A stretch of 64,000 nt of DNA from Isoetes taiwanensis. Taxonomy: Eukaryota; Streptophyta; Lycopodiopsida; Isoetales; Isoetaceae. Each line of letters begins with the position of its first letter. Positions within the stretch are counted from its first letter, which is position 1. Location: NCBI GenBank assembly GCA_021234155.1, contig JAJEKV010000017.1:7973253-8037252 (forward strand), given 5' to 3'. Both the position numbers and the translations under genes were made by a program. Shown one piece after another: positions 1 to 63,686 of this stretch. The notes under the pieces are model-generated. The model was given only the letters and a program-made list of their open reading frames with translations. It was not told where the DNA came from and ran no database searches.

Positions 1-1339
1 ATCCTTATAATTCTTCTTCAACCATGCACTCAAGTTTTTCTGCATCTTCTCAAACATACATGCCTCCTCTGTTGTACATTCATAGGGCCTTAAAATACAG
101 GTGACCATCATAGGTGGCTTTGGAAAATCGAATCTGCATCCGACATTTTTTTTCTTTCTACATGTCTTAGTATGCCTGTGTGTTTGCATTGCTTGCAAGT
201 CTATCGGAAGCACATCTGCATCTGTTGTTATCAGTTTATCAACGAACGTTACAATCTCTTCGTACGTAGCATATGGATACTGTGGTGCTTCATCAATCCA
301 TAACATCATATGATCATGAGGACTGCCCCTCCACCAAATAGTGTTGGAAAACATTGCTCCTCCACATATGGAGTGTTATAAAAACCCAATGGATGAGAGC
401 CTTCACCTGGAGCTACAACAACTATTTTGTCATCATAGTCATTGATCACATCAGGAGAGAAATTCCACATCAATGTATGGCCACCGAATTCAAAGATAAC
501 AACTTCATCTTCACCAAGACTTGCATTCAACATCGGGACATCAAAATGATCTCTAAACAATGTTTCCCAACTATCGTTTATTCTAATACCGGCTTTCTCG
601 TGATATACTTGAATGCTCTAATTGTTTCAAAGGCAAATTACCAACACAGCCTTACACCACCTTCCATATAAGCGTTAGTGTCACTCATCCTTCTCTTTAA
701 TCAATCAGATTGCACGTGTGCATCATCTAACCTTGGAAGACTTGCTTTATGTTGATTCTACATTGGTCGCAACGTGCACCATTCCTCCTTGCAATCGTTC
801 TGTCCTATTCTTAAATCGATAGTGATATATGAGCAAATGGCAGCCCTCGAGAGATATAATTCTTTTCCTCCAGATCCGACAATATCTTCACATTCTCGGT
901 ACTTCATTCATGACCATCTTCCTTTTTCCTTCTACCTTTTCTTGTCTATGACATCTTGTACATTTTCTCTTCCTACGCCATAATGTACACCACTCAACAC
1001 ATTCATTCTATTCTTAAAATGTGTTTTTTTTTCACTTGCATTTGGTTCAAAACCATAGTCTATTGCAACTTTCACATGTATAAATAGGCATGTCCATAGA
1101 GCGCTTCTCAAATTTCTTACAACTTACAATGGGGCCAACCATTCCTTCTGCAGATCGTCTCCTACAACATCAACTTCCTCACTTTCTTCCCTCCTTTCTT
1201 CATTGCAAGAATATGTGCATACACCGTGACGCTCGTCCACTTTATATCATCGTGCATTTGAATAAATGCTTTTGCCTTCTGCCTATCGACATTTGCATAT
1301 AATTTTTATCCCGTAAGAACTCATTAGTTTCTCAACATT
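1..1339 (-). pseudogene. Helitron Rep/helicase N-terminal fragment, frame-broken
   Basis: Read on the minus strand, this is the second copy of the N-terminal half of the Helitron protein (compare 6118-7460). Recognisable pieces are the Cys-rich segment, the 'LPFAHISLSDL'-like DUF6570 stretch and 'FPTLFGG', followed at once by the Rep HUH peptide. Several short frame breaks are present (for example around 700-820, 890 and 1225-1290), while the 6118-7460 copy keeps longer open frames. It cannot encode a working protein as written, but part of the damage may be sequencing error (see findings). Confidence 0.75.
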
Positions 1340-1896
1340 CGATCTGAAACATATTTTTTCCCCACATTTTGAATGCTATTCCCAATTCTCTTCACGTGTC
1401 TTGTAACAAGCATTCAACCGTCATTTTCATGCTAGGGTTTTGTTTCATAATTTCGATTTTACAATCCTATTACGGAAATTGCACTACATCTTTCTCTCTC
1501 ATAGAATCTTGTAACAATTTCTTCATCCTCTTTTGTCCATTTCACTAAGCTTCCCACTTCGCTTCATCCATCTACAACAATGCTCGAGATTTAGCTAGAC
1601 CATTTGTTTGGTATTCATTTTCCATGCTTCTTCCACCTACTTCTACTCATAGCATATCTAATACCCTCTTAAATAATAGTATTTTCCTAGCTTTGTTTTA
1701 TTGCTTAAATTCCTATGTGTCAAAATTGTTGATTCTTTGCCTAACCTCCTTCCCGCTCGATTTTGCTCCCCCTCGCGACTTTTCGATACCGTAATTCGCT
1801 CCAACCTCGCTTTATGATTTTAGATGCTCTGTGTCCAGATCTTTGTCATAAAGTTTTTCCCTATTTTCTTTGACATGTTCCCATTAGTTATCAAAA
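1340..1896. other. 557-bp block present only in the left Helitron copy
   Basis: The flanks of this block are contiguous in the copy at 7460. It is therefore either an insertion here or, more likely, a deletion there. On the minus strand it continues upstream of the known Rep N-terminal frame, with a short acidic stretch reading like TKEDEEIVTRFYERERC. It may hold the real protein start and the divergent promoter shared with the RPA-like gene. I see no separate gene. Confidence 0.5.
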
Positions 1897-2164
1897 ATGT
1901 TCTTTCCTATTTCATTTCCACGGTTCCTTACAAAACAACTTGATCCACACATTTTTTTACCTTTTTTACGCTTTTAGGTGTTCCATTGTCGTCCACGAGC
2001 TTGTCTTTAGCTCTTACATCTTTTGCATGCATCCCACATTATAAAGCTACTTTATGGCATATCTTTTGATTCATCGGACTATATATACATACGTTTGTCG
2101 GGTTACATGTCACTTCGCATCCCGTATCTTCTTTGTCTTGTATCTTCATGTTCTCTCTGTCAAC

Positions 2165-2630
2165 ATGTCTTTTTGTCCGAAATTGACCCATCTCTTAGTC
2201 CCGCAAACTCTTCCTTTCCTCACAAACATTCTCTCATTGAATCGTTCCTATAACATTCACGCTTCCATGCCTATCTTATGCAATTCCAATTTGTTTCTAA
2301 TGTTCCTAGCCAATCTGGCATTAATATGTCTAACTCTGTGAACACAGATTTACCTGCCATTAATCTATGTGATTCTTTTGATCAATCGCCCAAGCGCAAA
2401 CGTGTGCTAGACACCTACGGTCTACACGGGTTTGATGGCAATAAAATTGAAGTTCTTGTTCTCGTTCAATATGGTAACATTGATCGAAAGAGCTCCAAGA
2501 GATTTTGTGTCCTAAGTTCAGATGTTGTTGACAAAGATGCCCTTGAGACTATTTCAGTTACGGGCAACGGAGATGAGGCGCGTAAATCCCGTCACCTCTT
2601 CAAACCTGGTAATTGGTTGCTCATTAAGAA
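2165..2630 (+). pseudogene. RPA-like OB-fold gene, 5' fragment
   Basis: This is the counterpart of 7728-8200. It has the same start context and the same nuclear-localisation-like 'SPKRKRVLDTYG' and 'IEVLVLVQYGNIDRKSSKRF' segments. The first part is frame-broken at CTG-to-CCG or CG differences (for example near 2185, 2202, 2241 and 2257). The copy stops inside the first OB fold at the junction with the next element. Confidence 0.7.
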
Positions 2631-2803
2631 TAACGCGATGGCATCATGGTTTTCTATTTATGAAATAATTAAGCATCAATTGCTAAATGTCCCCATGATT
2701 ATAGGACACGTGAAAATGTTCACTATGTTATATGTCTTAAATCAAGAGACACATACATTTACATGAGTACAAAATAAAGTTAATGCGTTGTTTCAATTTG
2801 TGC

Positions 2804-3582
2804 TTATTCCAATAATATGGAGACTCTCCTATGATCACTCCAGTAACACGGAAATACCCATGCTTTACATGTGGAGAAGTTAGTCCATATGTGATCTAGT
2901 AAAGCAGTATGCCTAGTAGAAATCTTCACGTTCTGAATGAAGCCATGAAATATGCCAGTCAACATGTCATAATAACTGTTCTTGCAATGCATGTTTATGT
3001 TGAAGTCCCCGAGAACTATTATCTTATGCGAATAGTTCAAATTGTTAAGTAGTGTACGTACATCTTCGATGAATACGTGGAATCGAGGAACTAGGAGGCC
3101 CAGTAAATGTTGATGATCTGGATAACGTCTTTAGTTTTGTCATCTAATAAATGAACCACTGAATATAGGCCTGCATCTGAATCAAGATTACTGTAATGTA
3201 ACAAACTTATTCTTGGAGTTTTGTAAAGTGTGGCAATCCAACATTTGGCAGTGTTCATAATAGATTGATAACCTTCTCTGTTAAACATGCAATTGTCATT
3301 GGATCTAACTTCTTGTAAGCATAGTATATGTGAACTCATCAACTGATGATCACCACATATGTCTTCAATGTGAAGACTCGCAGAAGATGCATTCAATGTC
3401 GTTACAATACATGTCGTATCTGCAAATTCGTAAACATTTGGCATCGAATACTCCCATGATGCCCATGTTTTAAACCGCTCCATTTCATGATCTACAATAG
3501 GATTAACCTTGAAGTTTGAGTGCTCCAATGGCTTCATCAGATACAAGCCACTACTAGAGTGCATGCGAGATAACGCAAACAA
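2804..3582 (-). pseudogene. EEP (apurinic-type) endonuclease domain, frameshifted copy
   Basis: The same domain is intact at 12,898-13,668. Here the frame breaks near 3,090, just after 'IINIY', where the intact copy reads on through 'RPPSSS'. It resumes as 3040-2804 with 'IVLGDFNIN' and 'WSDHR'. The domain follows directly on the helicase end ('LSRMHSSSGLYL'), so it is the C-terminus of the transposase and not a stray LINE endonuclease. Confidence 0.8.
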
Positions 3583-3589
3583 GACCAGG

Positions 3590-5330
3590 TTTTTTTATAG
3601 ACGCTGGATTGAAGCAAAGTTCATGCAATGATGATCCTTGTGCTCGTAGTGCATTTCGAGGCTACGCTAGTTGTACAGGAAATTGCTCACGCATTATTTT
3701 ATGCTTGTCATTCTGTCTATCCGCATAATTTACTCGATTTCTCTATAGGTGTCCACATTGCATCAATGTCATTAGTTCTACAATATTTGAATCTTTCTCT
3801 AGCATTTGCACCTGTACGGGTTTTTTCAAAGCATATCCATAGCAGCTTCTTTGGCACCTGAGTGTATACATGAAATATACCCTCTGCACCGTTCACCAAG
3901 CCATCAAATAGATCTATATTACTTGTAAGCTCTACAAACATACCAGTTTCAATCTTAACTGCTTGTGCAAACCGTGTGTCTTGTTTACATCTGATGATAG
4001 TGATGATGATGTTGGACATCCATCCTGATGCGTGTCTTTTGAATCAAATATGTCAATGTTTCCATCACTCCTCATTAGTACCTAAGTAATGAAGTCATAA
4101 TGAGTAAATGAATTTGTTTTAGTTACATGTTTTGCAATTATATAGTAAACGAACCTTATCATTGTGACCTTTCACATCGTCCACGCTTATAAAACAAGTA
4201 TGGCAATGCAAGATCATCCGGAGGTCATCTTACACACGTGCCATTTGAAAAATTTATATCGTCATCACTTTGTTTTCCAATTCTCATGCGAAAGCTAAAA
4301 CTTTTGCGAACGGTATATCACTTTGTTGTCTAACTAATTCCTTCAATTCACATGCCTTGAAATTGGATTTCCATGGATGATATAATGCCGGTAAACAAAT
4401 AGATCCCAACCGCCTTATATCTTTTGCATCAGGATCACAGAATATCATTTTGTCATATAATGGTGGCAACTGGTAAAAATCTCTAGATGTTATAACATCT
4501 AGTCCTCCAAATGGTATATGGAATGTTCCTTTGAACCTGCATAAAATACATAAATTATTTAGTTAAATATAGCATACAATTTTACATTGTCAATTTATTT
4601 TGGCCAAAGATTATCTCTTACCTATTGCACATGTGATCCATTTTGCATAGAATAGTGTCAAACCAACCATAGATATCTCATCGATGACAAGAAGCTTAAC
4701 TGTGTCATGTGTGTTTCTCGTATGTTGTAATGATTCGTACGACGTCGAATTCAACTGACGACCATAATCGACATTAGGCCGTATTCCCATAGCTGAGTGT
4801 ATGGTAATCCCGTTTATATGATCTCGACCTTACCCGTAAATGCCAGTAACAATTGTTGTTGGTTTCCCCACGCACTCAATATACTCATGCTCATACCACC
4901 TTTTCATTCCTTGAATTATGCATTTTAATACTTGTAGACTTCCCAACTCCCCGCTCCACTGTGAGAAATAACATTATCCGGTGTCGTGGATCTATCATTT
5001 TCTTATACATAATGTCATCAAACAATAAGCGTTGCTCAATGTTTAGTCTTCTTATCATACTATGGTATACATGAGTTTCTACCAATTCCGTATCTCGTAT
5101 CAAGCAAGCACTATGTTTCTTAGGTATCGTTTCGTTAAACGCCTCTTTAGGAAACTCATTCCCAACATCAAACTCATGAGCAACATTAGCATCATCATCT
5201 AGTAAATGTCCAGTTCCTTCTTGTTTCAAAAGCACATTCAATGTTTGCCCAATCATCTGCTTCTCCATCTCCTCAATATTAACTTCTTGTGGCGCTTTTC
5301 TATTGCTTCCTCACGCATTGCATATGACTC
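3590..5330 (-). pseudogene. Pif1-family helicase domain of the Helitron, frame-broken
   Basis: Helicase motifs appear in the right order on the minus strand. These are Walker A 'GVGKST' near 4950, Walker B 'VIDEISMVG' near 4680, 'LPPLYDKMIF' and a 'LKELVRQ' region at 4469-4284, and 'GMFVELTSNIDLFDGLVNG' at 4019-3890. The motif VI region 'REQFPVQLAVARTVHRAQGSS' is readable in the 12.7-15.7 kb copy. Several frame breaks separate the pieces. The helicase would unwind DNA during rolling-circle transposition. Confidence 0.8.
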
Positions 5331-5429
5331 GTAACATGTTTGTCCACACATAACAAGTTCTTTTCATCACGAAGCGGAATGTGCAACATTAATCTCTCAG
5401 ATGCCCATGCCTGCGTGTCTTTATGCTTA

Positions 5430-6471
5430 TTAACAATCTGAGAATCTTATTATCGCACTTTTTTCACGGTGATATACATCCTTCCTTTTTTTATTTATGT
5501 AACGCCCGCCTACATCTCTATATTGGGATACAACTACAGCAAGGCTTACATCTTCCAGTTCCTTATCTCTATTCATATATTTGTTTATAACATTGTTTGC
5601 AACAACATCACGTACTATCTGCGTTAGCTTCTTCAATTCTTCTTTCCTCTTCAACACCACGACTTTCATTATCGGGTACATTAGTATCAACAAATATAAC
5701 TGTACGACTGCTCGTTTGTAGCGGCATTCCTAATATCAACATTATAGCCTCCGATATACTTATCTCTTGACATCGAATTAGAGCATTGCCCAACTTTCTT
5801 ATTCTCTGTACAGCATGCTCATTGTTTTCATTACAACATTCTATAATTTTAGCAAGTGTTGCAGATATATCAGATTCAGGTGACGTTATATATGATAAAC
5901 AATACGTAGCCACAGCATATGCATTGAATATATATTGGAAATCAGTGTTTGCTCTCCACAGCACTGCTATCTTATAATTGAATGCATTCACTTTACAATG
6001 TTTCAGTTTCCGTTTCAAATATACTTTTGGTCCTTTCAGACCATATGCAACTACTTTTAAATATACTTCATCTGTAATTCCAAGTTCCTCCAACATTGTG
6101 TTGTAGTCCTTCATATCATCCTTATAATTCTTCTTCAACCATGCACTCAAGTTTTTCTGCATCTTCTCAAACATACATGCCTCCTCTGTTGTACATTCAT
6201 AGGGCCTTAAAATACAGGTGACCATCATAGGTGGCTTTGGAAAATCGAATCTGCATCCGACATTTTTTTTCTTTCTACATGTCTTAGTATGCCTGTGTGT
6301 TTGCATTGCTTGCAAGTCTATCGGAAGCACATCTGCATCTGTTGTTATCAGTTTATCAACGAACGTTACAATCTCTTCGTACGTAGCATATGGATACTGT
6401 GGTGCTTCATCAATCCATAACATCATATGATCATGAGGACTGCCCCTCCACCAAATAGTGTTGGAAAACAT
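5430..6471 (-). pseudogene. Helitron HUH Rep nuclease domain and connector
   Basis: The 287-codon open stretch 6471-5608 begins next to the HUH peptide 'RGSPHDHMMLW'. The two metal-binding histidines are present, with Asp as the middle residue. Further on comes 'WRANTDFQYIF' and a tyrosine-rich 'AYAVATYCLSYI', the expected place of the DNA-nicking tyrosines. The next stretch (5693-5430) has 'NKYMNRDKELEDVSLA', typical of the link to the helicase. The Rep nicks single-stranded DNA at the transposon ends and covalently holds the 5' end. A frameshift near 5650 separates the two stretches. Confidence 0.8.
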
Positions 6472-7419
6472 TGCTCCTCCACATATGGAGTGTTATAAAA
6501 ACCCAATGGATGAGAGCCTTCACCTGGAGCTACAACAACTATTTTGTCATCATAGTCATTGATCACATCAGGAGAGAAATTCCACATCAATGTATGGCCA
6601 CTGAATTCAGTATTAACAACTTCATCTTCACCAGTACTTGCATTCAACATCAGGACATCAAAATGATCTCTAAACAATGTTTCCCAACTATCGTTTATTC
6701 TAATACCAGCTTTCTCGTATATACTTGAATGCTCTAATTGTTTCAGTGCAGCGATTACCAACACAGGCCTTACACCACCTTCCATATAAGCGTTCGTGTC
6801 ACTCATCCTTCTCTTTAACTGCAATCGTATTATCACAGTGTGCATCATCTAACCTTGGAAGACTTGCTTGCGTTGATTCTACATTGGCTGCAACGTGCAC
6901 CATTCCTCCTTGCAATCGTTGTTGTCCTATTCTTAAATCTGATAGTGATATATGAGCAAATGGCAGCCTCAGAGATATAATTCTTTCCTCCAGATCCGAC
7001 AATATCTTCACATTCTCAGGTACTTCATTCATGACCATCTTCCTTTTCCCTTCTACCTTTTCTTGTCTATGACATCTTGTACATTTTCTGCTTCCTACGT
7101 CATAATGTACACCACTCAACACATTCATTCTATTCTTAAAATGTGTTTTTTTGCACTGCATTTGGTTCGCAAACCATAGTCTATTGCAACTTTCACATGT
7201 ATAAATAGGCATGTCCATAGAGCGCTTCTCAAATTTCTTACAACTTACAATGGGGCCAACCATTCCTTCGGTATCGTCTCCTACAACATCAACTTCCTCA
7301 CTTTCTTCCCCTCCTTTCTTCAGTGCAAGAATATGTGCATACACTGTACGTTCTGTCCACTTTATATCATCGTGCATTTGAATAAATGCTTTTGCCTTCT
7401 GCCTATCTGACATTTGCAT
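6423..7419 (-). pseudogene. Helitron protein N-terminal region (zinc-finger, DUF6570, Helitron_like_N start)
   Basis: The first open stretch (7419-6799, 206 codons) has CxxC pairs (CESC, CTRC) and then 'LEERIISLRLPFAHISL', typical of the DUF6570 region of Helitron proteins. It passes by a one-base shift near 6840 into 6848-6423, which reads 'LQLKRRMSD', 'GGVRPVLVIAAL', 'APGEG' and 'CFPTLFGG'. The protein probably began further upstream; that part seems deleted at 7460. Confidence 0.75.
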
Positions 7420-7727
7420 ATAATTTTTATCCTGTAAGAACTCAGCTAGTTTCTCAACATTATGTTCTTTCCTATTTCATTTCACGGTTCCTTACAGAAA
7501 CAACTTGATCCACACATTTTTTTCTGCTTTTCTGCTTTTAGGTGTTCCATTGTCGTCCACGAGCTTGTCTTTAGCTCTTACATCTTTTGCATGCATCCCA
7601 CATTATAAAGCTACTTTATGGCATATCTTTTGATTCATCTGGACTATATATACATACGTTTGTCAGTTACATGTCACTTCTGCATCCTGTATCTTCTTTG
7701 TCTTGTATCTTCATGTTCTCTGTCAAC

Positions 7728-9196
7728 ATGTCTTTGTCTGAAATTGACCCATCTCTTAGTCCTGCAAACTCTTCCTTTCCTGTCAAACATTCTCTCATTG
7801 AATCTGTTCCTATAACTGTTACTGCTTCCATGCCTATCTTATGCAATTCCACTGTTTCTAATGTTCCTAGCCAATCTGCTGTTAATATGTCTAACTCTGT
7901 GAACACAGATTTACCTGCCATTAATCTATGTGATTCTTTTGATCAATCGCCCAAGCGCAAACGTGTGCTAGACACCTACGGTCTACACGGGTTTGATGGC
8001 AATAAAATTGAAGTTCTTGTTCTCGTTCAATATGGTAACATTGATCGAAAGAGCTCCAAGAGATTTTGTGTCCTAAGTTCAGATGTTGTTGACAAAGATG
8101 CCCTTGAGACTATTTCAGTTACGGGCAACGGAGATGAGGCGCGTAAATCCCGTCACCTCTTCAAACCTGGTAATTGGTTGCTCATTAAGAATTTTGGTGT
8201 GTCTGATACAAACCGTAGATATCAAGATATGGTGATCGTGGACTGGTCCATTAGCTTAATGTCGAATACAACGATCCAAATCATTTCTGGTCAAGAAATT
8301 GTTCTAAACTTAAGGCCTTCCTTGGGCCTTTATCTCAAGGGCCTCAAATATGCAAAGCCTTCTGCAACACTTCATGGCAGTATTCTTGCAACAGTTGTTG
8401 GTGTCAATGAATCAAATCGTCGTCTTCTCTCGTTCTTGCGGATGGCCTAACGAAAGATGACACATCGCCCTTATACTTCTGGAAAGACCAACTAGACTTA
8501 TTCAATGTCCTTAAGAACTCGTTTGTGACAGGAGGTGATACAGTTTTCCTCTTCAAAAGTATTGCACGTTCTACTCTAGCTAACAGCTCCAATCTTGTGA
8601 CGACAAGTGCAACAATGGCTTTAATGCCTAGGGCCGATCGAGGAGCGGCTTCCTTTCCTTCTTCTTTTAGATATACATATCCATGGCTTGAAACAACTGC
8701 GGCAAGGATGTATTCGCTTTACACCGCAAGGTGCCTTGTGGCGGCCCGGTACGAATATTTGGATTATTTCATCTACTACATACTCTATCCTTCATTCTTA
8801 ATATTCTAGAAGCCAACCTCATTTCTCCTTCTCTTTCGGACAGTTTCTGGTCACCGCTTTACGAAGGTCGGCATTACCAATGACATTAAGAACATATGTG
8901 CCACTTGTAGCGCACCTAAAGACCCTGATAGCATCTGCATCGCATGTGGCTCCAAAATCTCTAAGGCACATCTCACTCTTCATGGTAAACTCCTCGACCG
9001 AAGACAAATGATGCACCTATTAATGTTTCTATCTGGCCCTCTTTGGGCGTGGCTCTTGGTCACAAATGAAGGTGGCACCTTTGTCCGCATTGCTCGAGAC
9101 CGCTTTGAGTTCCGTGATTCACTTCGACCGATTGCACCCAAAGGCACTTTCAAACTTAACAACGCTGGAGTGGTTGTAGACTTCCTTACTCAGTAA
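7728..9196 (+). pseudogene. RPA-like single-strand DNA-binding protein of the Helitron
   Basis: From the ATG at 7728 the frame is open to 8447. It contains a KRKR nuclear-localisation-like motif and two stretches compatible with OB folds ('IEVLVLVQYGNIDRKSS' and 'SATLHGSILATVVGV'). After a one-base loss near 8431 it continues in another frame ('VLADGLTKDDTSPLYFW', 8432-8650). The C-terminus has a zinc-ribbon-like 'CATCSAPKDPDSICIACG' (about 8898-8951) and runs to the stop at 9196. Plant Helitrons commonly carry RPA70-like genes thought to coat single-stranded transposition intermediates. The region 8650-8880 changes frame again and may hide further errors or an intron. The break at 8431 is exactly what a CTG-to-CG change would give. 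Confidence 0.65.
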
Positions 9197-10934
9197 CTTC
9201 CTTCTTGTCATGCACACTTGTTCTTTACATGTGTTTCTGTTCCATTAGTTAAGCTTCACTTTTTGAGCATTGTGATTTTACTTCACACATGTTTTTGTAA
9301 TTCCAACTCTACAAATGTCCCTCTTCTGACTTCGTGCGCTATATTATTCACTTCATCTAAACTATTCTGTCATTATTACAACTTCTCCTTGTCTTCTTAT
9401 TCTACCTTTATTTCTAATGTGTTACATGTTGCTATGTCATCTAACATTTTAGCATCTCACCAATTGAAGATTATATTTTATCAAACCATTGTCTTACTCA
9501 TATATTTGGGTCTACATTTCACCCAATATTTACAACAAATATATCGGACTTTTTTTTCGTGCTTTTGTGTTTGTGCATCTACAATAGGCTGTAATTACCT
9601 TATAAATCCCTATGCAAATTTTTTTCTAATTACAATATCGACATCCCAACTAAATGCTTGCTTGTACTTCCATAGTGCATAGCCATCACTTATGTCAGAA
9701 GTCAGAGGTCAGCATGACCAGGATTACCAGTTGCAGCCTGCTATAGTGCTCCAAGCGTCGTTTTCGAGTCTGATAAATACTACGATACATGGTACGGAAC
9801 ATCATAACCATTGAACCAAATTAGACATCTGCAGCACTTACAGTAATGTGGAGCTTGCCCACAAATGCCATGATATTCTCATCTCAATCATTTTACAAAC
9901 CTAGGCAAGATATCAAACATGGGTCTTACTTATATAAACAAAAAACAACCAATATTGCTTGTGATGTTAGACCAAAACAGAAAACATAAGAGAGTGTCGA
10001 AAAATTAAACGGGAAACTTGTTCTTAGTATCAAGCCGCATTACTACATGCGAATCGGTTCCTTGTTCCAATATCATTACGTCAAAAAATAACCATGGACT
10101 CAAACTCCACTTAATTCAATCATTTGCAACTAATACTTAACGATATATTACCTCGTGCTCAAAGACATGTACAAACTGTTCACAAATTTGTCGGCCCCAA
10201 TTAGCCTTTTAAATCAACATTCACGCTTGGAACTCTGCGCCGTGTTATTTTAGCAACTATATCGAAATAAATCTCACTACTTCCCCTATCTTATCTCCAT
10301 TGTCAGCCTTTCTCTAAAAAAGAGTATGTTGGAATGTCAGTAAACTATGTGATGACAGAAATACAGCCTAGCAGAATCGACACTTCGTGAACCATCAGCC
10401 ACTTTGATATAGGGATTCGCGTCTGAGTCATTAGAAGATTATATTCATTTCTTTGTTTGTTTCTTTAATCTTTCTTCATTTATCAAACATCATTCTTGCG
10501 GGAGGAGAAAGGTTGTGGGCAAATCGATGCATATTGTGTGCGGATGTGTCCCCATCTCATTGACTTATCAACCATAAATGATGCAACACACAAAGATGGA
10601 GATACCATGACCGGATCGCATAAACCGGCCCGCTTTAGCCGCGATTGAATCTTTGAAGTCAAAATGACAAAGGAAGAAAAGCGCTTACAATGCTATCTTG
10701 GGTGAAGGTGGGATATAGAGTCGTGATGGAAATCAAAATTTGACCTGGTTTCCTCATTGGTTAATTTGATGAAGGACCTTGCAGGATGTTTCTATTTAAT
10801 GCTAAAAATTGAGAACAACAAGATGCTAAAGTTATTTGCAATTTCCTTCCTTTATATTTTTTTGTAAGCTTATCATTCCATTTTCTTTTTCCATAATTGT
10901 GGTGCAAACATTAAGTTACCCAACTTTGATGCAG
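9197..10934. other. AT-rich non-coding DNA
   Basis: No reading frame here resembles a known protein, and no RNA gene was recognised. The only marked structure is the first copy of a 35-bp repeat at 10,358-10,392. Confidence 0.5.
10358..10392 (+). repeat. 35-bp direct repeat, copy 1
   Basis: This sequence, beginning GAAATACAGCCTAGCAGAAT, recurs without a mismatch at 12,510-12,544. The two copies bracket 2.1 kb that contains the PWWP-like fragment. Confidence 0.9.
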
Positions 10935-11412
10935 ATTCAAGAGACTGGGATATGGTGGCCTGGAATGTTATTAAGTAGGAATAAATGGCCCAAGGCCCTT
11001 GTTAAAAAGAAATTGGCAGGTAAACACAGGGTTGTGCGTCTTTTTCATCTGTTTGATTCATCTCAACAATATCCGTGCTTCCTCGAAGAGGTAATCATTC
11101 TTTGGAAGGTCATGTTACATGCAATGGATTATTAATGTTATTGTAAACTTTCCTTTAAGTTGCTTAATGTACCAATTCAAACTTGTATTGGGTTTGTTAG
11201 TGTACTAAACATTCCTTATAAACGAAATTACCCTGCTTGTGGGTTTTTGAATTCTAGTTTCTCTTTTCATTACTTTGACTCTATTTAAGTTTGCTTGTCC
11301 TAAAACTTGTCTATCCTCCAAAATACAGACTTCTTTGCGGCCATTCGGGGAGAATCACGATTTCATCAAGGACGGGCGATAATGGAAGGTCATCAATTTC
11401 CATCCTCAATGG
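10935..11412 (+). pseudogene. PWWP-domain gene fragment, two exon-like pieces
   Basis: The first piece (10,935-11,090) follows a good acceptor (TGCAG), ends at a good donor (GAG|GTAATC) and is open for 52 codons. It reads 'GIWWPGMLLSRNKWP' and 'VVRLFHLFDSSQQYPCF'. The second (from 11,329 after ATACAG) reads in phase 'SLRPFGENHDFIKDG' and then stops. Together they resemble a PWWP chromatin-reader domain: an aromatic WWP core, a hydrophobic strand and a 'LxPFxEN' end. The stop and the lack of any further gene suggest a captured or decayed fragment. The identification is by eye only. Confidence 0.45.
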
Positions 11413-12724
11413 CAACATCTTGGGTATGAAATTCTCTTCGCATTTTTGGATGGTTTGGGTTTTCAGTGGTTTATAGATGACTTCTTACGCTACAATAAAA
11501 CATATATTAAGACCTTGTTCATTCATAGCAAACAGGAGATGCATTGAACATAGTGAGAAGCCAAACTTTATATAATTTGCAGATACATATAACATTACCA
11601 AGTTTTGAACTGTAATCTTAGAACTGTAAGAGAGCATAGGTATTTAGACAAAAAAGGTCTATGCTCGATAAACTTAAGTGTATGAGAGCTGATACTACAC
11701 ATAGGCATATGTAGTAGCATAATCTAGTAGGTCTGATCTAGTAACACTGACGTAATGGATACCATATTAAGTATCTATCATGCACTTCATGTAACTTTGT
11801 TGTCAAAACCTTGGTGAGAAGTCGCTAATAATCCTTCTGTGGTTTACTTCAAACCTCTTGAATATGCGCCTTGTTGCTAAATTATTTCGGAATTCAACTG
11901 GATCAAACATTAGGTTTTGCCAGCGTCCGGCCCATCACCGTGATATTCTAGTAAACTATCTAGAACAGCATTACCACCAACACTTACATTAATTATTTAA
12001 ATGCGTGTATGAATCCTTCCATGCAAAGATGAGACATCCTTTTATTTCATGACTACCGCAATTGTCGTGATGTTTCTTCTAATCGCCGCTTGCTTGACGG
12101 CTAAGACACAAACTTGTAATCGTGTTATTTGTGCCAACAAAAAGTTCTAGATGGCCTTCTATCTCAGAAATCACAACATTTCTGAAATTTATGAGCACAT
12201 CGACTTATGCTTTTTCATTTGAAATTTATGCTATCATCATACCTGGCCGTTGTTCGGCAGTCGGTTCTGCATGGGAAACACGACATTTCGGTGGAACTCT
12301 ATGGTACTTACATGACACTTTGTCGTGTATGGAAGTGATGACCTCCGAGGATTTGACGACATACGCAGAATTATAGTTGCACTTGTGGTCATCAGGACGT
12401 CTTCGCCATTTTGATTTGAACGTTTCAGGCTTTTGAACAACATTGAGGTTCTATTTCCTATTCGAAACAATGCTTTCATGCGTGCATACAGGTGTCTCTT
12501 GTATGGACTGAAATACAGCCTAGCAGAATCGACACTTCGTGAACAATATGCAACGTAGCAAACTTAGAGTTCTGAATCCTCCTTCAGCGATTTTATCGAT
12601 TGTTTAATGTTTTACCTTACCAAATGTCTTGCTAGAAACAGCTTATAGTACTTTTGCCCTGCAGTTAGTTGGAAACCAACGAATCCTAATCTTGCCAACG
12701 TAATCGTACATAAAGGTAATGAAA
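11413..12724. other. Non-coding DNA between Helitron pieces
   Basis: No gene is recognised. The stretch ends with the second 35-bp repeat and about 180 bp of unmatched DNA before the helicase/EEP copy begins. Confidence 0.45.
12510..12544 (+). repeat. 35-bp direct repeat, copy 2
   Basis: This is identical to 10,358-10,392. It lies about 180 bp before the start of the third Helitron-type piece. Confidence 0.9.
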
Positions 12725-12897
12725 TAACGCGATGGCATCATGGTTTTCTATTTATGAAATAATTAAGCATCAATTGCTAAATGTCCCCATGATTATAGGA
12801 CACGTGAAAATGTTCACTATGTTATATGTCTTAAATCAAGAGACACATACATTTACATGAGTACAAAATAAAGTTAATGCGTTGTTTCAATTTGTGC

Positions 12898-13668
12898 TTA
12901 TTCCAATAATATGGAGACTCTCCTATGATCACTCCAGTAACACGGAAATACCCATGCTTTACATGTGGAGAAGTTAGTCCATATGTGATCTAGTAAAGCA
13001 GTATGCCTAGTAGAAATCTTCACGTTCTGAATGAAGCCATGAAATATGCCAGTCAACATGTCATAATAACTGTTCTTGCAATGCATGTTTATGTTGAAGT
13101 CCCCGAGAACTATTATCTTATGCGAATAGTTCAAATTGTTAAGTAGTGTACGTACATCTTCGATGAATACGTGAACTGAGGAACTAGGAGGCCTGTAAAT
13201 GTTGATGATCTGGATAACGTCTTTAGTTTTGTCATCTAATAAATGAACCACTGAATATAGGCCTGCATCTGAATCAAGATTACTGTAATGTAACAAACTT
13301 ATTCTTGGAGTTTTGTAAAGTGTGGCAATCCAACATTTGGCAGTGTTCATAATAGATTGATAACCTTCTCTGTTAAACATGCAATTGTCATTGGATCTAA
13401 CTTCTTGTAAGCATAGTATATGTGAACTCATCAACTGATGATCACCACATATGTCTTCAATGTGAAGACTCGCAGAAGATGCATTCAATGTCGTTACAAT
13501 ACATGTCGTATCTGCAAATTCGTAAACATTTGGCATCGAATACTCCCATGATGCCCATGTTTTAAACCGCTCCATTTCATGATCTACAATAGGATTAACC
13601 TTGAAGTTTGAGTGCTCCAATGGCTTCATCAGATACAAGCCACTACTAGAGTGCATGCGAGATAACAC
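12898..13668 (-). CDS. EEP endonuclease domain of the Helitron, open copy
   Basis: This is a 256-codon open stretch. It starts with the tail of the Pif1 domain ('LSRMHSSSGLYLMKPLE') and continues into an endonuclease/exonuclease/phosphatase fold. The key motifs are visible: 'LCLQEVRS' (metal-binding Glu), 'INIYRPPSSS', 'VLGDFNIN', 'LLDHIWTN' and the catalytic 'WSDHR' near the end. EEP enzymes of transposons nick target DNA. The fold is shared with LINE endonucleases, but no reverse transcriptase follows and the helicase motif VI precedes it. It is part of a larger, upstream-broken gene, so it probably has no start codon of its own. Confidence 0.75.
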   Translation of the reverse strand: MLSRMHSSSGLYLMKPLEHSNFKVNPIVDHEMERFKTWASWEYSMPNVYEFADTTCIVTTLNASSASLHIEDICGDHQLMSSHILCLQEVRSNDNCMFNREGYQSIMNTAKCWIATLYKTPRISLLHYSNLDSDAGLYSVVHLLDDKTKDVIQIINIYRPPSSSVHVFIEDVRTLLNNLNYSHKIIVLGDFNINMHCKNSYYDMLTGIFHGFIQNVKISTRHTALLDHIWTNFSTCKAWVFPCYWSDHRRVSILLE

Positions 13669-15508
13669 TGTGTAAACAAGACCGGGTTTTTATAGGCCGG
13701 ATTGAAGCAAAGTTCATGCAATGATGATCCTTGTGCTCTGTGTACAGTTCGAGCTACTGCTAGTTGTACAGGAAATTGCTCACGCATTATTTTATGCTTG
13801 TCATTGCTGTCTATCTGGCATAATTTACTCGATTTCTCTATAGGTGTCCACATTGCATCAATGTCATTAGTTCTACAATATTTGAATCTTTCTCTAGCAT
13901 TTGCACCTGTACGGGTTTTTTCAAAGCATATCCATAGCAGCTTCTTTGGCACCCGAGTGTATACATGAAATATACCCTCTCCAGACCGTTCATCAACCCA
14001 TCAAATAGATCTATATTACTTGTAAGCTCTACAAACATACGGGGTTTCAATCTTAACTTTGCTTGTGCAAACCGTGTGTCTTGTTTACATCTGATGATAG
14101 TGATGATGATGTTGGACATCCATCCTGATGCGTGTCTTTTGAATCAAATATGTCAATGTTTCCATCACTCCTCATTAGTACCTAAGTAATGAAGTCATAA
14201 TGAGTAAATGAATTTGTTTTAGTTACATGTTTTGCAATTATATAGTAAACGAACCTTATCATTGTGACCTTTCACATCGTCACGCTTATAAAACAAGTAT
14301 GGCAATGCAAGATCATCGGAGGCCGTCTTACACACGTGCCATTTTACTGAAAATTTATATCGTCATCACTTTGTTTTCCAATTCTCATCTTGAGCTAAAA
14401 CTTTTGCGAACGGTATATCACTTTGTTGTCTAACTAATTCCTTCAATTCACATGCCTTGAAATTGGATTTCCATGGATGATATAATGCCGTAAACAAATA
14501 GATCCCAACCTTCTTATATCTTTTGCATCGGGGATCACGAATATCATTTTGTCATATAATGGTGGCAAATCGGTAAAATCTCGGATGTTATAACATCTAG
14601 TCCTCCAAATGGTTATATGGAATGTTCCTTTGAACTGCATAAAATACATAAATTATTTAGTTAGGTATAGCATACAATTTTACATTGTCAATTTATTTTG
14701 GCCAAAGATTATCTCTTATGTGATCCTTTGCATAGAATAGTGTCAAACCAACCATAGATATCTCATCGATGACAAGAAGCTTAAGCTGTCATGTGTGTTT
14801 TTCTCGTCACGTTGTAATGATTATTCGCACAACGTCGAATTCAACCCGGCGACCATAATCGACATTAAAGGTATTCCCATAGGAAGTGTATGGTAATCCG
14901 TTTATATGATCTGCCGACCTTACCCAGTAAATGCCGTAACAATTGTTGTTGGTTTCCCCCCGCACTCAATATACTCATGCTCATACCACCTTTTCATTCC
15001 TTGAATTATGCATTTTAATCTTGTGAACTTCCCAACTCCTGCTCCACTGTGAGAAATAACATTATCCGGTGTGTCGTGGATCTATCATTTTCTTATACAT
15101 AATGTCATCGGACAATAAGCATTGCTCAATGTTTAGTCTTCTTATCATACTATGGTATACATGAGTTTCTACCAATTAAGGTATCTCGTATCAAGCAACC
15201 ACTATGTTTCTTAGGTATCGTTTAGGTTAAACGCCTCTTTAGGAAACTCATTCCCAACATCAAACTCATGAGCAACATTAGCATCATCATCTAGTAAATG
15301 TCCGATTTCCTTCTTGTTTCAAAAGCACATTCAATGTTTGCCCAATCATCTGTTTCTTCTCCATCTCCTCAATATTAACTTCTTGTGGCGGCTTTTCTAT
15401 TGCTTCCTCACGCATTGCATATGACTCGTAACATGTTTGTCCACACATAACAAGTTCTTTTTCATCCGCGAAAGGATCGTGTGCAACATTAATCTCTCGT
15501 ATGCCCAT
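13669..15508 (-). pseudogene. Pif1 helicase part of the third Helitron copy
   Basis: The best pieces are 13,952-13,629 ('MWTPIEKSSKLCQIDSN' and motif VI 'VARTVHRAQGSS') and 15,508-15,287 ('CGQTCYESYAMREEAIE'). The Walker B region is recognisable near 14,765. Frame breaks sit where the first copy has CAG or CTG, for example 15,302 (CCGATTTCC against CCAGTTCC) and 14,040 (ACGGGGTTTC against ACCAGTTTC). Confidence 0.7.
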
Positions 15509-15680
15509 GCCTCTGTGTCTTTATGCTTATTAAAAGATCACGAATCTTATTATCGCACTTTTTTTCACGGTGATATACATCCTTCCTTTTTTATTTATGT
15601 AGCAGCCTACACATCTCTATATTGGGATACAACTACAAACAAGGCTTACATCTTCCGGTTCCTTATCTCTATTCATATAT

Positions 15681-17470
<1,790 letters not shown>

Positions 17471-18062: not shown

Positions 18063-63686
<45,624 letters not shown>

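Follow-up and report, generated by a model that had tools for sequence, protein, structure and literature searches.

The 64,000-nucleotide stretch of Isoetes taiwanensis DNA analysed here (the window: contig JAJEKV010000017.1, positions 7,973,253 to 8,037,252) contains repeat copies that differ from each other preferentially at CAG and CTG (together CWG, where W is A or T). The CAG/CTG-linked differences are a systematic assembly artefact and, with high probability, most of them are consensus errors that were left in the published assembly after methylated native DNA was miscalled. The artefact shows motif specificity, strand-symmetric outcomes, two copy states (clean and affected), a patchy distribution, accompanying homopolymer changes and the same change in 5S rRNA genes. 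From these observations we infer methylation, rather than bare sequence context, as the cause of the errors, and uneven short-read polishing as the origin of the patches.

Copy differences in the window and across the genome

Self-BLAST of the window gives three blocks of paired copies: 1-1339/6118-7461 (95.6% identity), 1897-2631/7462-8192 (95.7%) and 2629-5580/12723-15680 (94.8%). Base-level alignment of these pairs yields 140 difference clusters, 95 of which contain an insertion or deletion (indel). A CAG or CTG in either copy is touched by 71 of the 140 clusters, where random placement gives 12.5 ± 3.4 (no more than 24 over 1000 placements). Under the same placement, GAC/GTC controls are touched by 14 clusters (10.7 expected) and CG by 73 (20.1 expected, maximum 38); GCA/GCT/AGC/TGC controls are also raised (44 clusters, 22.4 expected, maximum 37), in part because these motifs overlap CTGC and GCAG. 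A CWG in one copy stands against a CG in the other in 44 clusters. The CG is in the left copy in 29 of these and in the right copy in 15, and the balance is uneven: the two 1-2631 blocks have 21 left and 2 right, the 2629-5580 block 8 left and 13 right. The differences are patchy: there are none between partners in 1-484, 2321-2631, 2629-3078 and 3103-3574.

The original prediction, made from the sequence alone, had placed the copy differences at CAG/CTG and described changes between CWG and CG in both directions, and the alignment bears out both points. Its six quoted examples are all present, at positions correct to within 2 bases. The pair that it drew between 1-2630 and 6118-8211 is real but consists of two blocks that end at 8192, not 8211, and 1340-1896 has no partner at 6118-8192. 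The stretches of the window concerned are as follows.

1-2631, minus strand: part of a Helitron, cut by the window edge; error signature in 485-1339 and 1897-2320; 1-484 and 2321-2631 equal the second copy
2629-5580, minus strand: second half of the Helitron, helicase and endonuclease region; 3575-5580 is copy L001 of a nine-copy set
6118-8192, minus strand: counterpart of 1-2631, with CAG/CTG largely retained (of the CWG/CG clusters, 21 have their CG in 1-2631 and 2 have it here)
8201-8700, plus strand: stretch with a predicted frameshift at 8431; aligned with five other copies
12723-15680, minus strand: partner of 2629-5580; 13674-15680 is copy L009, which has the highest CWG deviation of the nine copies (18/28 sites) and 32 indel clusters

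By their predicted protein domains, these pairs are copies of a Helitron (Helentron-like), a DNA transposon: open reading frames (ORFs) of sister copies L003 and L007 match Helitron_like_N (3.8e-12), PIF1 (7.7e-12) and Exo_endo_phos (1.3e-9), and the domains also lie on 12898-13689 of the window. A match to Herpes_Helicase in L007 (17.8 bits, cut-off 27) is weak and was taken as general helicase resemblance. The difference-free stretches 1-484/6118-6601, 2321-2631/7882-8192 and 2629-3078/12723-13172 adjoin stretches that differ by approximately 5%, with sharp edges. Positions 2319-3078 are CG-rich (observed/expected ratio [o/e] 0.82-0.90) yet nearly identical between copies; this richness is either real or the same error in both copies. 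A tandem repeat of approximately 60 bases, with two copies that are 97% alike, lies just right of the Helitron copies at 16039-16157.

The genome searched (1,658,258,908 bases in 1110 contigs) supplied further copies, and nine of 20 matches to window positions 3575-5580 (93-100% identity) were aligned. Majority CAG/CTG sites deviate in 74 of 248 cases, the highest fraction of 32 trinucleotides (992/17310 overall). Copies were classed as clean or affected by indel count, which for the Helitron gives two clean and seven affected copies (replacing a first split of four and five). Of the clean copies, L002 has 1 indel cluster and no deviant CWG site (0/28), and L007 has no indel cluster and 2/26 deviant sites; at the other end, L008 (31 indel clusters) deviates at 16/28 sites and L009 (32) at 18/28. 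In the seven affected copies, CWG deviates at 72/194 positions compared to 727/12699 for other non-CG trinucleotides (odds ratio [OR] 9.7, rank 1 of 32). Regional composition was rejected as main evidence: CAG+CTG o/e is 0.48 in 485-1339 and 0.25 in 1897-2318, with CG o/e of 0.86 and 0.99, respectively, but the cleanest Helitron copies are CG-rich too (0.74 in L002 and 0.71 in L007). Accordingly, the predicted creation of CG holds at CWG errors, where CG is gained, and the CG content of the Helitron, which is high even in clean copies, is only partly artefact.

The frameshift near 8431 had been named as one that may not be real. The window copy and five others were partly aligned, and a column was scored if four or more of the six sequences covered it. 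Over 8201-8700, the window copy differs from the majority at 8 places, 6 of which touch CAG/CTG. One open frame runs through the aligned part in L077 (285 bases), L078 (497) and L081 (328), and no single frame does so in the window copy, L079 or L080. With three of the five other copies open in one frame, and the window copy and two others interrupted, this frameshift is possibly unreal.

Two other families in the window were compared in the same way.

39861-42002, minus strand: long interspersed nuclear element (LINE) reverse-transcriptase ORF of 713 amino acids (aa), between dynein exons; clean internal control free of indel clusters, with C>T/G>A as its only CWG changes
58441-59495, plus strand: fragment of a more diverged LINE (zf-RVT), the third family; mostly clean over 21 copies

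For the LINE, 21 of 44 matches were aligned (40 of 989 candidates scored), comprising 13 clean copies, seven affected copies and the intermediate L061, which is in neither class but was counted among non-affected copies in the patch and homopolymer analyses; these classes replaced a first split of 8/4 among 12 copies. CWG ranks first of 32 in the affected copies (243/478 vs 2171/12348, OR 4.8) and is at background in the clean ones (123/884 vs 3056/22653, OR 1.04, rank 20). The kind of change differs as well: the 123 clean changes comprise 62 C>T/G>A, 28 that make CG and 33 others, whereas the 243 affected changes comprise 41, 129 and 73, respectively. Clusters gaining and losing CG are balanced in clean copies (88:89) and skewed in affected ones (182:51; Fisher p 2.7e-9). 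Affected copies carry 13.0 indel clusters per kb compared to 1.75 in clean copies, and their longest frames are 91-326 aa compared to 239-713 aa. The most affected copy, L030, keeps 17/68 CWG sites and has 41 CG-gaining clusters and 44 indel clusters. Age is not the explanation, because L057 and L058, with more deviations than L030 (139 and 138 compared to 96), keep 712-aa frames while L030 reaches at most 168 aa. These frames and the 713-aa frame of the window copy may, as read from sequence, reflect recent activity. A comparison of flank composition in 12 LINE copies gave no clear rule for the affected state. In the third family (21 of 42 matches, including the window copy; 40 of 300 candidates scored), the clearest affected copy is L054, with 12/23 CWG sites deviant.

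As classes defined by indels risk circularity, the test was rerun with indels away from CWG. These correlate with CWG miscalls (Spearman 0.85 for nine Helitron copies, 0.86 for 21 LINE copies and 0.53 for 21 third-family copies); the corresponding values for changes at CAH/DTG (H is A, C or T; D is A, G or T) are 0.35 in the LINE and 0.21 in the third family, with the Helitron value considered below.

Among 264 miscalled CWG sites in affected copies, the commonest outcomes are CTG to CCG (50/184) and CAG to CGG (24/80), and 164 outcomes contain CG. The two commonest are a reverse-complement pair and therefore the same event on two strands. Two copies miscalled at one site share the outcome more often than in shuffles (61/291 pairs vs 29.2 in the LINE, 10/53 vs 5.4 in the Helitron), to which shared descent could contribute. 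Within affected patches, CAG/CTG deviates at 287/503 sites, far above CAA (84/894), CAC (83/496) and CAT (89/1029), which means that the third-position G counts, as in CHG methylation. CG trinucleotides come next after CAG/CTG, so the two most heavily methylated plant contexts head the list.

For 10 of the 14 affected copies, a copy changes between the intact and the miscalled state less often along its length than shuffles do (p<0.05); in the LINE copies L026, L028, L029 and L060, the damage lies mid-stretch and the sequence is intact towards the ends. Homopolymer length changes away from CWG amount to 16/217 near errors compared to 9/505 elsewhere, the latter made up of 0/122 elsewhere in affected copies and 9/383 in other copies. 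Homopolymer error is an ordinary mark of unpolished R9 consensus. Because such changes accompany the errors, the damaged patches were probably missed by polishing or filled in later.

5S rRNA genes as a yardstick

The 5S arrays found in the genome, in four stretches, provide 76 units (one of 77 matches, at a locus edge, was dropped). The site ATCAGAA reads ATCGAA in 41 units and is intact in 26. The corresponding k-mers are as follows.

CG version: CCCATCGAACTCCG
Counterpart: CCCATCAGAACTCCG

At least one of four CAG/CTG sites is changed in 61/76 units, and nine units, the reference included, are letter-identical to the reference unit (110 bits; genome best 111.4). Deviation is 0.57 at CAG 15, 0.64 at CAG 39, 0.74 at CTG 78 and 0.33 at CTG 111, and reaches 0.78 around CG/CCG sites. 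It spreads over a few bases, as at CACAC (24-26), TTAA (52-53), CTCCC (92-94) and GTCCC (102-104), and is 0.1-0.3 at the unit ends. Stretches away from CG and CAG/CTG (31-37, 41-43, 70-72 and 79-91) deviate by only 0-0.08. A gene as conserved as 5S would hardly be expected to vary like this in the majority of units when the same arrays contain exact ones. Some units, such as those of L076, look truly diverged. At C13:282500-302499 and C907:40703000-40709900 (L073-L075), exact units lie next to heavily miscalled ones.

Origin of the errors

The original prediction had called for the sequencing platform to be checked, and the platform is of the expected kind. The assembly was made from native DNA with Oxford Nanopore Technologies (ONT) R9.4.1 reads (SQK-LSK109), base-called with Guppy 3.1 flip-flop, assembled with miniasm, and polished with racon and then with pilon using Illumina reads; gaps were filled in two LR_Gapcloser rounds with a pilon step between (PMC8566536). 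The published size is 1658.30 Mb in 204 scaffolds and 909 contigs (PMC8566536). According to a review that describes the training set, the base caller was untrained on plant methylation (PMC7501810).

These steps suggest how the errors could have arisen. Native plant DNA, methylated at CG and CHG in its repeats, would have been read by a caller untrained on plant methylation, and methylated CAG/CTG would often have been called CCG/CGG, CG or a nearby garble. An error shared by the majority of reads would persist through the racon read consensus. Pilon would then have fixed the copies or patches on which Illumina reads landed and left the rest, and gap filling after polishing may have added more raw stretches. 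Incomplete short-read polishing is the most likely reason that only some copies and patches are hit.

Candidate methylation genes are present in the genome. L067 (C61:37700-43200) carries, in succession, a BAH-like exon and a Chromo piece that both miss the Pfam cut-off (E 0.0012 and, narrowly, E 2.2e-5), followed by DNA_methylase, which passes it (E 4.1e-9). BAH, chromo and C5-methylase in this order is the arrangement of chromomethylases, and from this domain order L067 is a probable chromomethylase gene. We take L033, which has two BAH stretches, to be a MET1-like gene and the L064 frame to be DRM-like. Two near-identical MET1-like genes lie on different contigs (L033, C1019:9327000-9333500; L034, C1072:446000-452000) and represent haplotigs or else a recent duplication; L033 has a long open frame (1852-2946) that is not listed in one piece in L034. 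The methylase pairs C61/C1026 and C1056/C277 have equal scores. Chromomethylases have been reported in lycophytes (PMC5410703), and no Isoetes methylome was among the matches listed in a literature search for Isoetes and CHG methylation.

We consider it extremely improbable that the affected copies are truly decayed, with changes directed to CHG sites. The copies are transposons, in which decay is expected, and 5-methylcytosine mutates faster; however, deamination of CAG/CTG gives TAG, CAA, TTG or CTA, never CG. Changes of the deamination type make up 62/123 of the CWG changes in clean LINE copies but 41/243 in affected ones, where those making CG rise from 28 to 129. Real mutation is also at odds with the same change in 5S units beside exact ones, and with error patches that switch within one copy and carry homopolymer changes. 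A homogenised 5S pseudogene variant is the main escape from the 5S argument, but it would leave the same change in two transposons unexplained. It is rather unlikely that copy-specific methylation, not polishing, sets the affected state, such that clean copies are unmethylated. The position of the clean window LINE between dynein exons would suit this explanation, and patches could be methylation boundaries, but homopolymer changes, expected to be independent of methylation, cluster near errors (the 16/217 and 9/505 given above), and exact and damaged 5S units are adjacent in one array. This is a variant of the miscalled-methylation explanation rather than an exclusive rival, and both may act.

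A context error without methylation, in which the R9.4.1 caller misreads CAG/CTG as such and polishing alone separates clean from affected copies, is very unlikely. The signs of unpolished consensus (patches and homopolymers) fit it equally well, but the three trinucleotides that follow CAG/CTG in the patch list all contain CG, which is the second context that is methylated; CAC is mid-list, and CAA and CAT come close to last. Moreover, default ONT models fail at CC(A/T)GG in Dcm-methylated bacteria and hardly do so when trained on it (PMC6591954). The original prediction of a base-calling error at methylated CHG stands as regards the artefact, the third-place-G context and the same CAG to CG change in 5S; methylation would be the cause that best accounts for these.

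Several observations weigh against the miscalling of methylated DNA as the explanation. CWG and CG counts are both unchanged in 55/140 pair clusters, so the pair pattern is strong but not universal. Within affected patches, CG trinucleotides are raised (CGC 59/159, ACG 76/235, CCG 47/163 and CGA 65/262), as is AGG/CCT (119/422). The prediction of CAG/CTG as the error site is therefore correct for the top-ranked motif and incomplete otherwise, since CG sites are hit too and about half of the pair differences miss CAG/CTG. In 5S, mean deviation ranks CAG third (0.57) after GCC (0.68) and AGA (0.62), with CGC at 0.46; GCC and AGA overlap a CCG and a CAG, respectively. The two cleanest Helitron copies still have CWG deviations at 2/54 compared to 49/3500 (OR 2.7, p 0.18), and in the Helitron the CAH/DTG control tracks indels too (0.73). 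The third family is mostly clean, with CWG at 76/482 compared to 1831/19993 (OR 1.86), rank 5 after four CG trinucleotides. Patchiness is not significant in 4/14 affected copies. The clean copies L057 and L058 have a pattern in common, so near-likeness of copies alone does not block polishing. In eight LINE copies classed clean, the C>T excess at CWG (35/1026 vs 90/4201 at CHH) is modest, as is the sign of germline CHG methylation that it gives. Finally, CCWGG deviates at 6/15 sites compared to 281/488, numbers too few to test an exemption of Dcm sites.

Consequences and known systems

A considerable share of the broken genes and additional CG in the mobile DNA of this genome is probably unreal. 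In its young repeats, the artefact would mislead estimates of repeat age, intact frames, CpG content, copy divergence and 5S gene counts, and gene finders may count many miscalled 5S units as pseudogenes. The 5S gene could conversely act as a gauge of assembly quality. Depleted CAG/CTG, added CG, frameshifts and patches make up a signature that is easy to seek in other native-nanopore plant assemblies of that time. More tentatively, the residual errors may be a record of CHG methylation, with each CAG/CTG read as CCG, CGG or CG in an unpolished patch marking a methylated site; this is possible, though we would not favour it. If true, the methylation of young transposons and 5S arrays would be readable from published plant nanopore assemblies without a methylome.

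Lower ONT accuracy on native plant DNA, with plant methylation named as a likely cause, has been described, as have species-specific models (PMC9749173, PMC7501810). The lower accuracy is shared with the present case, and the CAG/CTG to CG signature does not appear in the portions of those papers that were available; 'CHG', 'CAG' and 'CTG' are absent from the main text of PMC9749173. Such errors in plant assemblies are likewise not named in the titles or abstract openings among the literature matches listed. Modifications absent from training are reported to cause systematic ONT errors, which are reduced by whole-genome amplification and corrected by demodification or Modpolish (PMC10687267). 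Our case would be alike in this cause; that work concerns bacterial isolates, and the part of it available contains no plant CHG signature.

By analogy, the artefact in the window is of a kind with the Dcm errors already known from this base-caller family. In Enterobacteriaceae, approximately 70% of the consensus errors made by the ONT callers of the time fell within Dcm motifs (CCAGG/CCTGG) (Wick et al. 2019, PMC6591954). Both cases would involve 5-methylcytosine in a C(A/T)G core, models untrained on it and errors that survive read consensus. Unlike the bacterial CCWGG errors, those described here affect plant CAG/CTG in general as well as CG sites, and survive Illumina polishing in repeats and 5S arrays. 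To the known Dcm errors, the present case adds the CHG form of plants, which persists in a polished assembly and also occurs in 5S genes.

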